Origin: Oscillospiraceae bacterium
Lineage (GTDB): Bacteria; Bacillota; Clostridia; Oscillospirales; Acutalibacteraceae
Assembly (NCBI GenBank): GCA_029218825.1
Contig: JAQXSC010000114.1
Location: 1-37,958, forward strand
DNA: 37,958 bases
Reading direction: 5' to 3'
This document shows positions 1,759 through 5,546 of this stretch, piece after piece. Below the pieces are notes generated by a model. That model saw nothing but the letters and a program-made list of their open reading frames with translations, was not told where the DNA came from and did no database searches. The position numbers and the translations under genes were made by a program. Position 1 is the stretch's first letter. Each line of letters opens with the position of its first letter.

Positions 1759-1936
1759 CGGCTTGCGTAAGTGTAGTAATTACACTTACGCTAAGCATTG
1801 CAGATCGGTTCTCTATTACAAGAGAGTATATATCATCAACAGGGACTCGGTTTTCACCTTTACTCGATGTTACTACTAACCAATTATTTTTGATATTTAG
1901 CTTTTCTCTGGCAGTAACGATAACGGTTCTCCATGT
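1697..1936 (-). pseudogene. cas1: Cas1 N-terminal remnant
   Basis: Minus strand frame reads TWRTVIVTAREKLNIKNNWLVVTSSKGENRVPVDDIYSLVIENRSAMLSVSVITTLTQAGAN then enters out-of-frame cas2 sequence and stops at TAA 1697-1699. Typical Cas1 N-terminal domain; no start codon in frame; not in the supplied ORF track. Confidence 0.85.
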
Positions 1937-4900
1937 TTCGTAATTTCCCCACCTTTTTTACCAAGAATATCTACACTAATCTTCTTGATTGAAGCCTTTT
2001 GGCCAATTTTGATTGTTTCGTCTTTTCCTTTCGCATTCTTTCTATTATTATATCTTGTGAAATATAATGAATTTTGATTGATATTATTAGCAGAAAGATA
2101 ATAGCCTCTGCGCACATCATTGGTTCTTGTTATCTCTAAATAATCTCCATAAAACAAATACATAATATGTTTACCATAATCCTCAGGATATTGATATGTA
2201 GGCTTCAAGTACAATTTCTTATCTTTGTGAACAATATGATTTCGCTTTATACCCTGTAGGTTAATTAAGGTTTTTGTGGATTTACCTGATGATTTATTCT
2301 CTATGCTTTTTAGTGTTTCATACACCTCTACACAGTAGTACTTGTTATCAACCAGAGCAGAATGGTTATTTTCTCCAATGGCCTTTATTGACAGTGGATC
2401 TGTTACAGATTTTGCTTTTGCAACATTATCATCTGTTATTGCTCCGCTATACTTTCTTTTTGGCTTAATGGACACAATCGGCATCTCAATGGAATTTGCA
2501 AATGCTAAATCATCGTAGTAAAACTTGCGCAAGTCTGCTCTAAACATTTCTTCTATCTCTTCCTCTGATTTATCCTGACATTCGTTGATAAAATGTTTCA
2601 TCAGTTCTTGGTCACGCACTCTACATTCAACCTCAAGCCTTAAATTTTTAATTAGCGATGGAGTTTCCTTTAGATATTCTAACATTGGGCGGGATACTTT
2701 TGGAGATATGCCATAAAACTTCATAAGTGTATCTACGCACCGATTTAGACTTCTTTCGTATTCCTCTGTCCTGACCTTTCCGGCACCATAATAAATATCC
2801 CTAAGCTTTCGATTTTCAGCAGTAATTACAACCATTGCCGGAGTGCAATTTGCTATTACTATTGCATCTACTGCATGGTCAAAGTATGTTATATCCTTTA
2901 ACTTTGATTTGTCCGGCTCACCCCATGTTTCTTTATTCAACCATTGGCGTCTAAGCATAGATGTAATAGCACCCTTTACGGCATACACTTCAGGTCGTCT
3001 TTCGTCCGACTTTTCTCTGCTGAATTTTAGATTATCCGTGAAATACTTAACTAAGAATTTAGATATGTAGCGTGTATCGTTCAAATTACGAGTTTTCCAA
3101 TTGGTTAACAGTTTTTCAGCCTCTTCACTCTTTAATGTTTCAAGCATCAAATAGGCATACTTTGTTTTGTTTATGACCTTATCTTTCATCAGTTTGTTAA
3201 CATTTTTTATGTAATTAGTTCTTTTCTCTCCTTCTAAGTACATTAACGGAACCCGATTACCCTTATTTTGATTTTCTTCTGCAATAACCAATGCCTTATT
3301 ATTTAGCGTATCATCCAAAATAAGTGAAAACGGAACAATGTGGTCAATTTCATAGGTCTTATTCTCGTTTTTGATTGCCTCTTCCTTTTTAGAAATATCC
3401 TTTCCGGAGTACAGGCACTTCCAGCCCTGCGTTTCTCCCAATATATACCTGTCTATATAACCCGGCTTAACTTCACTTTCCTCAATCTTAAGCAATTCAG
3501 AAATTGCCTTTATGGCATTTTCTCTTTTTTTCCTGTTATCCTGTTGACCTTTTTTGATTTTATTTCGTTTTTTGGAACTTGTGTTCAAATCCTTGCTTAC
3601 CTCAATATTCAAGGCATTAGGTACTCCATACCTATCAACAATAGCATTTACTACTTTTCTGGCTTCGTTTATGGCACGGAACACTACGGGATTTTTAGCA
3701 TATTCGCTATTTGCATCAAAAGGAGGAAGTTTTTCGTACTTTATACCGTTTGTAGCAGAAAACTTGTCTTTTAATACTTCCGCTTCAAACTCTCCGGATA
3801 ACTTACCGTTTATAAAAGCATTAATGGTATCAATCATAAACTCATTGCTGGCTTTTGCAGTTCCTGAAAACTGTTGTCTTGCAAGTTTATTAATTAAACT
3901 ATCATTATCTGAAATTTCGGGTATTTTCTTTAGTGAATTAATCCTTCTGCTTGGAGTGATATCCTTTGATAACGTCTCTCCAATTCTATTTAGAAGGCTG
4001 TTAATATCAAGATAGTTTTCGCTGATTAATTTCTTCCAATCAAAGCCATTGTCTTCAAATATTGGCTTAACAACCTTTATATACTTAAAGCAATCCGCTA
4101 CATTTTTTCCGTCATCATTGCTTGAAGTAATGATTTCAAAATCTAAGTCCTTGGCTATTGAATTGATTTCTTTTTTTGATATTGAACCGTTTATCAGTGC
4201 AGTATCTATTATTTTATCCATTAACACATTCGGAACCTTAATAACCTCACCTGTTTGTGAGTTTACATATCTGAATTGTGATAACTTATTGACTAAAGCA
4301 AATAAATCTCCTATAACGGAAAATCTAAATCCTCTCGGCTTGTCCGGATAGAACTGACAGTTACCTATTGAATCATAAAATCCTTTATATGGTCTGAAAT
4401 TATCATTTACATCTCCGGGGCCGTCCTCAAAATCTCTTCTGCTGAAAATAATATTCCAAATATCTTCAATGGCTTTTTGAGTTAAGCAAGGATAGTATTC
4501 AGCTTGCTTATTAAGAATATCATATACTTCTTTCTCATACATTTTTGTAGGAAAGAGAATACTAATATTATCCTTACTATTTCTGTACTTTTTTCTATTT
4601 GTAGTTTCATCTCTAAAATAAGGGTCTTTAATTATCGCCTCTGCAATAGAACGATAATTTCCTTTTTCTATTATGTCGGCGGTGGATTTCATTGCAAGCT
4701 GATTTTTACCTTCATCGCTCTTTTTATCATCCTTAGGCACCTCATAGAACGGTTTATATCCCCTGTGTTTTGCGATATGCATTAAACAAGCAGATAATTC
4801 CTCAGGGGTAATCTTCTCATCAAGAGCCTTTGCTCTTAACTCAATAACATCATGAGAATTATCCTTAAAGAACTCAGCAATTTGAGCCTTTGTGGTTAGT

Positions 4901-5145
4901 CCTATTTCCTGAATATAATTTTTCAGTCGTTCTCTTCTATGGACTCTTCGTCTTTGATTACGGCGTGTTCCACGATATTCTCTTCTCTGTTGTGCATAGC
5001 TTTTTCTGCTTTTTTCATCTCCACTTTCACTGGAATCAAATATTCGTACGCCAAAATCCTCAATGCGTTTGCAGTTTTCTTCGTTTCGGATAACCGCCCA
5101 GCCTACTGACCCGATTCCAACATCCAATCCAATAATATATTTCAA
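1897..5145 (-). CDS. cas9: CRISPR-associated endonuclease Cas9 (type II-C-like, 1082 aa)
   Basis: RuvC-I YIIGLDVGIGSVGWAV, Arg-rich bridge helix, RuvC-II ALNIEVSKDLN, HNH YEIDHIVPFSLILDDTLNNKALV, RuvC-III YFDHAVDAIVIA; TTG start. Confidence 0.97.
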   Translation of the reverse strand: MKYIIGLDVGIGSVGWAVIRNEENCKRIEDFGVRIFDSSESGDEKSRKSYAQQRREYRGTRRNQRRRVHRRERLKNYIQEIGLTTKAQIAEFFKDNSHDVIELRAKALDEKITPEELSACLMHIAKHRGYKPFYEVPKDDKKSDEGKNQLAMKSTADIIEKGNYRSIAEAIIKDPYFRDETTNRKKYRNSKDNISILFPTKMYEKEVYDILNKQAEYYPCLTQKAIEDIWNIIFSRRDFEDGPGDVNDNFRPYKGFYDSIGNCQFYPDKPRGFRFSVIGDLFALVNKLSQFRYVNSQTGEVIKVPNVLMDKIIDTALINGSISKKEINSIAKDLDFEIITSSNDDGKNVADCFKYIKVVKPIFEDNGFDWKKLISENYLDINSLLNRIGETLSKDITPSRRINSLKKIPEISDNDSLINKLARQQFSGTAKASNEFMIDTINAFINGKLSGEFEAEVLKDKFSATNGIKYEKLPPFDANSEYAKNPVVFRAINEARKVVNAIVDRYGVPNALNIEVSKDLNTSSKKRNKIKKGQQDNRKKRENAIKAISELLKIEESEVKPGYIDRYILGETQGWKCLYSGKDISKKEEAIKNENKTYEIDHIVPFSLILDDTLNNKALVIAEENQNKGNRVPLMYLEGEKRTNYIKNVNKLMKDKVINKTKYAYLMLETLKSEEAEKLLTNWKTRNLNDTRYISKFLVKYFTDNLKFSREKSDERRPEVYAVKGAITSMLRRQWLNKETWGEPDKSKLKDITYFDHAVDAIVIANCTPAMVVITAENRKLRDIYYGAGKVRTEEYERSLNRCVDTLMKFYGISPKVSRPMLEYLKETPSLIKNLRLEVECRVRDQELMKHFINECQDKSEEEIEEMFRADLRKFYYDDLAFANSIEMPIVSIKPKRKYSGAITDDNVAKAKSVTDPLSIKAIGENNHSALVDNKYYCVEVYETLKSIENKSSGKSTKTLINLQGIKRNHIVHKDKKLYLKPTYQYPEDYGKHIMYLFYGDYLEITRTNDVRRGYYLSANNINQNSLYFTRYNNRKNAKGKDETIKIGQKASIKKISVDILGKKGGEITKHGEPLSLLPEKS

Positions 5146-5164: not shown

Positions 5165-5193
5165 TTGACAAAGTAATTAATATGTAATATAAT
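5165..5193 (+). promoter_or_regulatory. Consensus sigma-A promoter for tracrRNA
   Basis: TTGACA (5165-5170), 17-bp spacer, TATAAT (5188-5193); expected start near 5200. Confidence 0.85.
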
Positions 5194-5227
5194 CCAAGTA
5201 AAGAACTTAGGAATTTGGTGCGTATGC

Positions 5228-5284
5228 GTATAAGTTTATCAATATTCATCAACACAATTATAAGTTTATCAATATTCATCAGAG
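5228..5284 (+). repeat. Tandem partial CRISPR repeats / doubled anti-repeat (30-nt period)
   Basis: 5228-5251 GTATAAGTTTATCAATATTCATCA (repeat nt 1-24) and 5259-5284 TATAAGTTTATCAATATTCATCAGAG (repeat nt 2-27), same orientation. Confidence 0.95.
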
Positions 5285-5340
5285 TTCTAAGATAAGGCAA
5301 TATGCCGTAGGGTAGTGGAAACCCAATTACACCACACTTT

Positions 5341-5373
5341 AAGAGATATCCTTGTGATGTCTCTTATTTTTTT
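5341..5373 (+). terminator. Rho-independent terminator of tracrRNA
   Basis: AAGAGATATC-cttgt-GATGTCTCTT followed by ATTTTTTT. Confidence 0.85.
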
Positions 5374-5546
5374 GATTATATTGATAACATTACAATCAGA
5401 TAAATACTTATATCACTCACTAAACAAAATTACTGCTTTTGCAGTCTTCTGCATATTTTTAAGTATTATAGCATTTTAAACTAAATTTAGCAATAATTTA
5501 TTATAATTTTATATATGTTAACAGTTTTGTGAACAAGCTTTACTTT

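Follow-up and report, generated by a model that had tools for sequence, protein, structure and literature searches.

A tracrRNA with two anti-repeats, conserved across a clade of Cas9 loci, and a leader predicted to mask its guide-forming copy

The trans-activating CRISPR RNA (tracrRNA) of Cas9 systems is usually viewed as a passive partner of the CRISPR RNA (crRNA), with one anti-repeat that pairs with the CRISPR repeat; a single anti-repeat is its usual form and no strict requirement. In type II-A streptococci, tracr-L has a 5' extension that folds on the anti-repeat and yields a self-contained, guide-like RNA (PMC11417352, PMC8730458). Type II-A arrays have a leader hairpin that masks an extra repeat, and suppression of extraneous crRNA (ecrRNA) is described for type II-C (PMC12080349). 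The Cas12g tracrRNA contains two anti-repeat regions that form two duplexes with one crRNA repeat (PMC10511118). Here we describe the tracrRNA encoded beside cas9 in a stretch of 37,958 nucleotides (nt) from an Oscillospiraceae bacterium (contig JAQXSC010000114.1, positions 1 to 37,958; hereafter the window), which contains two anti-repeats and belongs to a clade in which this doubling is conserved. No account of a Cas9 tracrRNA with doubled anti-repeats turned up in the literature searched, a search that left out two key comparative papers and does not prove absence.

The tracrRNA gene is on the plus strand, divergent from cas9 on the minus strand. Its sigma-70-type promoter, TTGACA-17-TATAAT (5165-5193; TTGACA 5165-5170, TATAAT 5188-5193), matches the consensus at 12 of 12 positions and places the predicted transcription start near 5200, upstream of the first anti-repeat (AR1), so that AR1 and the second copy (AR2) both lie inside the predicted transcript. 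Following the leader (5200-5227), AR1 (5228-5251, 24 nt) is a perfect complement of nt 13-36 of the local 36-nt repeat GTTTTGGCTCTCTGATGAATATTGATAAACTTATAC, present in 11 identical copies at 728-1422; after a linker of 7 nt (5252-5258), AR2 (5259-5284, 26 nt) is complementary to repeat nt 10-35. A preliminary description of the locus had reported both same-sense copies, 30 nt apart in register, together with the perfect divergent promoter; the coordinates were right, and the complementarity to the repeat was checked. It had also seen that only AR2 runs on into GAG-TT-CTAAGAT, a nexus-like hairpin and the terminator, as the sequence confirms. The lower-stem strand TTCTAAGAT (5285-5293) is predicted to pair with the 5' end of the repeat in the guide and with the leader in the free RNA. 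Fold and sequence place the nexus-like hairpin GGCAATATGCC (5296-5306), distal hairpins and terminator (5341-5373) within 5294-5373; an inverted match at 5378-5396 falls beyond the terminator.

Outside the array, the 22-nt anti-repeat core occurs at these two sites only in 38 kb, which excludes a chance origin of the doubled anti-repeat. The RNA has what a tracrRNA should have: an anti-repeat complementary to the repeat, outside the array and near cas9 (here twice), and, for AR2 only, the lower stem, bulge, nexus and terminator. Cofolding of the window RNA with the repeat seats the repeat on AR2 and the lower stem. The usual single anti-repeat is found neither here nor in any other of the 37 clade members, which all have two. 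Apart from how many anti-repeats it has, the RNA is a tracrRNA in all features tested, a variant form and not a different RNA. It shares with the canonical type II-C tracrRNA the promoter, the anti-repeat with lower stem and bulge, the nexus, the terminator and the position beside cas9, but has an extra same-sense anti-repeat and a leader mimicking the repeat before the working anti-repeat. At the 14 neighbouring single-anti-repeat loci examined, the anti-repeat directly follows the promoter with no such leader. The Cas12g tracrRNA likewise has two anti-repeat segments in one molecule, but the two copies in this clade are both full and compete for the same part of the repeat.

Two anti-repeats were present in all 37 readable tracrRNAs beside related cas9 genes (31 after removal of near-duplicates), a count covering clade members with a readable cas9 5' flank, each with exactly two same-sense copies; doubling, spacing and position inside the transcript recur in 36 loci besides the window. 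A single Cas9 query gave no match in the first scan of genome contigs, an alignment of five clade Cas9s yielded 35 loci and a phylum-wide search added two; the search seeds were all two-copy, so the clade's outer border is not mapped. In a tree of 56 Cas9 proteins, one branch (Shimodaira-Hasegawa-like approximate likelihood ratio test, SH-aLRT, 100) separates 34 two-anti-repeat rows from 21 single-anti-repeat rows, with one label change vs 17.6 in shuffles. The four closest Cas9s in the class-wide search (37-41% identity) had two anti-repeats in 4/4 cases, and 22 neighbouring Cas9 loci had one each, as did Cas9 loci of the same genus, order and class (~33% identical Cas9). The doubled anti-repeat is a property of the whole Cas9 clade, not of this locus alone. 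The clade includes Clostridia, Negativicutes and others, among them Acetobacterium, Gemmiger, Faecalibacterium, Ruthenibacterium, Anaerovibrio, Thermincola and Saccharofermentans, and metagenome-assembled genomes labelled Veillonellales and Acholeplasmataceae. Acetobacterium dehalogenans DSM 11527, Gemmiger sp. An50 and Anaerovibrio lipolyticus are members available in culture. No closely similar Cas9 was found in other genomes of the window's genus (161 genomes), which suggests that the window's Cas9 locus was acquired horizontally; among plasmids there was no close Cas9 (best ~31% identity).

The distance between the core ends of the copies varies from 30 to 64 nt (median 44). Relatives have linkers of 12-38 nt, parts of which are predicted to pair with AR1 and AR2; the longest (38 nt, locus L119) has a hairpin of its own, CTTGCAAATATGCAAG, between both anti-repeats. 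The truncation of AR1 that had been reported is shared by the window with only part of its relatives; AR1 often has 27-31 nt in the others and extends past GAG. The window's copies are identical over the 22-nt core, while copies elsewhere usually differ by 1-4 nt. Since its linker is also the shortest and its leader long (28 nt, vs mostly 16-20 nt before AR1 in the clade), the window looks like a recently reset, derived member.

Paired with the repeat of its own locus over the 22-nt core at 29 loci, AR1 gives 579 Watson-Crick pairs, 37 G-U pairs and 22 mismatches; for AR2 the counts are 603, 15 and 20. Across the 22 loci of subgroup A, AR1 mismatches the local repeat 8 times, vs a mean of 36.4 when AR1s are exchanged between loci (minimum 23 of 5000). 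Among transitions away from perfect complementarity, 37 in AR1 keep pairing and four break it; for AR2 the numbers are 15 and zero. From the low number of own-repeat mismatches and the predominance of pairing-keeping transitions, sequence comparison shows that purifying selection maintains the ability of AR1 to pair with the crRNA repeat and that AR1 has not decayed. A position weight matrix (PWM) gave a median promoter score of 15.1 upstream of AR1 across the clade vs 4.6 for any promoter between the copies, and the clade-wide scan found no convincing promoter between AR1 and AR2; AR1 should therefore always be part of the primary transcript. The preliminary description had named, as grounds against its reading, absence or decay of AR1 in all relatives with no effect on crRNA levels, or a transcription start downstream of it; neither loss of AR1 nor a promoter that would give such a start was seen. 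Its reading of a maintained second anti-repeat stands, although it missed the clade-wide nature of the doubling and the mimicry in the leader.

Seven loci (L111, L113-L117 and L121; subgroup B) have a different repeat (GTTTTAGTTCTCGGACATTCATTGG...) and keep both anti-repeats. All seven AR1 copies share one G-U wobble (TATCAATG or TGTCAATG) vs TACC/TGCC in AR2, which argues that the identity of each copy is maintained and not homogenised. In subgroup B and in L091, L096, L098, L104, L107, L109 and L117, imperfect AR1:repeat pairs often lie mid-duplex (core positions 8-15), a stretch in which AR2 hardly ever departs from perfect pairing. Because of such imperfections, RNase III might cut the AR1 duplex less well than that of AR2.

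In most members the predicted RNA start lies 16-20 nt before AR1 and the leader carries the motif GAACTTAGA...TGATG, which, read in the crRNA sense, resembles the first half of the CRISPR repeat, from its 5' end (TTAG, some 5 nt, TGATG). In the window, CTTAGGA (5206-5212) and the next nucleotides imitate the same half, and the predicted cis partners of the leader are TTCTAAG (5285-5291) and the AR2 3' end (-16.5 kcal/mol). Individual RNA folds show this pairing with the AR2 3' end and lower-stem strand in most members. As MAFFT misaligned the leader, anchored tests were used. Leaders paired with their own AR2 end and lower stem at a mean of -13.5 kcal/mol, vs -10.7 ± 0.38 when swapped and -6.2 when shuffled (0/20000 permutations as low); with one member per lineage the values were -14.2 own and -11.4 ± 0.52 kcal/mol swapped (0/50000 permutations). 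Over 13 distinct lower-stem combinations, a count that omits L056, L088 and L095 (related, without the CTTAGA motif), 94.5% of cells pair and three of seven pairs have changed on both sides; the covariation score of 0.286 (vs 0.184 ± 0.033) exceeds 500/500 shuffles and all slid registers. Compensatory changes include CUCAGA:UCUGAG (L098/L102), CUCAGG:CCUGAG (L090), A-U/U-A/C-G at pair 7, and UGAUG:CAUCA replaced by GUUG:CAAC in L091/L093 and L097. In L106 AR1 ends in CCAAC and AR2 in CCATC (RNA CCAUC); the leader's GATGG fits the AR2 end only, which indicates that the leader masks AR2 and not AR1. The leader:AR2/lower-stem pairing is a prediction that covariation supports. A 17/19 match of 5199-5217 to the interior of cas9 (4866-4884) might have marked a target or an antisense site; this reading was rejected, since the match is one of many weak two-copy matches and the pairing with AR2 and the lower stem explains the leader.

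The predicted ensembles are consistent with an exposed AR1 and a masked AR2. The lower stem is unpaired at 0.13 vs 0.58 with leader and linker shuffled (p=2e-9), and the last 10 nt at 0.68 in AR1 vs 0.31 in AR2 (p=1e-8). Opening a 10-nt docking site would cost 1.4 kcal/mol in AR1 vs 4.9 in AR2 and is cheaper in AR1 in 28/31 members; the leader adds a mean of 3.5 kcal/mol to the cost of opening AR2 and the lower stem. When the repeat is added to the fold, it is seated on AR2 and the lower stem in the window RNA as well as in 4/5 relatives tested.

We find it plausible, short of probable, that this tracrRNA is a self-closing RNA whose two anti-repeats have different jobs. Somewhat more tentatively, the tracrRNA of this deep Cas9 clade may be an RNA switch in which a built-in dummy crRNA sits on AR2, AR1 serves as landing site and the supply of crRNA licenses the assembly of Cas9 guides. 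From the conserved doubling and from a leader fold that is predicted and supported by covariation, we infer the following course. The leader mimic would pair with the AR2 3' end and lower stem, giving a pseudo-guide without spacer, as the fold and covariation suggest; in the same predicted fold AR1 would stay open as a binding site. A pre-crRNA repeat would then nucleate on AR1, and the docked repeat would displace the leader from AR2 by strand exchange, giving a normal guide with Cas9; alternatively, RNase III might cut the AR1 duplex and detach the leader, and a second repeat would take AR2. The freed leader could re-pair within the AR1 region. Until a real crRNA arrives, the dummy would hold the tracrRNA, perhaps with bound Cas9, inactive and shielded from wrong partner RNAs.

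Several observations weigh against such a switch. The repeat:AR2 duplex (about -41 kcal/mol) is thermodynamically far stronger than the leader mask, so any gate would have to be kinetic. The repeat duplex of AR1 is nearly as stable as that of AR2 (-39.1 vs -41.2, with AR1 the stronger in 9/28), so a downhill hand-over from AR1 to AR2 is not guaranteed; a consistently weaker AR1:repeat duplex was rejected as its driver, the difference being only slight. The fold of L107 seats the repeat on AR1, the leaders of L056, L088 and L095 lack CTTAGA and pair in another register, and leader pairing is weaker in some members of subgroup B (L113, L115, L117). Transcript starts and folds are, moreover, predictions.

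The main rival is that AR2 and AR1 of one tracrRNA bridge two neighbouring repeats of a pre-crRNA, with the spacer looped out and RNase III cutting on both sides. The antiparallel order of the copies fits such an arrangement, AR1 is kept for pairing, and the window tracrRNA cofolded with repeat-spacer-repeat forms both duplexes (-105.4 vs -74.5 kcal/mol with one repeat). Yet a copy spacing of 30-64 nt is variable, the repeat bound to AR1 lacks the lower stem and nexus and so provides no guide there, and the repeat-mimic leader is left unexplained. We consider bridging unlikely, and it could coexist with the switch that we favour. Less likely again is that AR1 acts as a sponge, tying up repeats in dead duplexes and limiting the supply of crRNA. 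That AR1 cannot form the lower stem, bulge and nexus and holds the repeat with close to the strength of AR2 would suit this role, but the copies are made 1:1, so that supply would at best be halved, and here too the leader has no part. Sponge, tether and extra RNase III site were all proposed in the preliminary description; they are possible functions, but the conserved leader and the asymmetry between exposed AR1 and masked AR2 are not accounted for by any of them.

The same description had seen a relation to tracr-L regulation, which holds for structure only, since a guide-like scaffold is present but no spacer. It is improbable that the self-folded RNA acts as a guide with which Cas9 represses the cas promoter of its own locus. 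Leader, AR2 and nexus mimic a single-guide scaffold through a 5' extension, as tracr-L does (PMC11417352), though in our case by prediction. What counts against a tracr-L role is the lack of a spacer before the mimic: in most members the RNA is predicted to start just 2-6 nt or so ahead of it, leaving no spacer-like segment to match the cas promoter, and the would-be spacer sequence is occupied by the promoter. The clade RNA further differs from tracr-L in having one promoter only and an extra internal anti-repeat, and targeting of the cas promoter belongs to tracr-L, to which the clade RNA is likened by predicted fold alone.

A role of AR1 in the DNA, as provider of the cas9 -35 box (TTGATA on the cas9 strand), seems very improbable. 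TTGATA occurs in most AR1 copies and is kept in 7/7 of subgroup B, where AR2 has TTGGTA or a variant, but it is lost in L094, L098, L104, L106 and L107, no -10 box lies at a constant distance, and substitutions along AR1 follow the pairing-keeping pattern. The window's copies, identical over the 22-nt core and closer together than elsewhere, as after a recent reset, would suit a neutral leftover of recombination of the tracrRNA gene with a repeat. This reading is hardly credible and was already disfavoured, given that no clade member has lost AR1 despite deep divergence, that copies at other loci differ by 1-4 nt and still pair, and that the leader covaries.

A switch of the kind we favour would resemble the type II-A leader hairpin and type II-C ecrRNA suppression (PMC12080349) in that one strand of the repeat:anti-repeat duplex is masked in cis by an RNA segment mimicking the other; in those systems the masked strand is that of the crRNA, whereas here it would be the tracrRNA. 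If true, a conserved, self-masking form with two anti-repeats would add a further level at which Cas9 loading is controlled. For these Cas9s, a guide built by joining the repeat to AR1, the first anti-repeat met, would lack the lower stem and nexus. The clade tracrRNA also suggests a natural template for conditional guide RNAs.

The window carries a compact type II locus with the array, damaged cas2 and cas1, and cas9 on the minus strand, and the tracrRNA on the plus strand. The cas9 gene (1897-5145) encodes 1082 amino acids with RuvC and HNH motifs (TIGR01865, E=5.7e-172; HNH_4; RuvC_III). The repeats of the array (728-1422) alternate with spacers of 29-30 nt. The adaptation genes (1474-1933) are broken: a cas1 remnant (1748-1933; residues 2-63 only, tblastn with cas1 of L056) runs into a cas2 without its first 22 residues (1474-1758; TIGR01573, E=7.2e-21). 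No Cas1 match was found elsewhere in the assembly (92.7% complete), and no Rfam match in the window. The loss of the adaptation genes is probably recent, since what interference requires is intact and the 11 repeats do not differ. In L056, cas9-cas1-cas2-array is intact with no fourth gene between, which fits type II-C (without csn2 or cas4); the window has the same set, with cas1 truncated. The window's genome also encodes a second, distantly related type II Cas9 (34% identity; G000:C30:653-2905, L021), whose tracrRNA has a single anti-repeat (3040-3071); two Cas9 systems with different repeats thus coexist in one genome.
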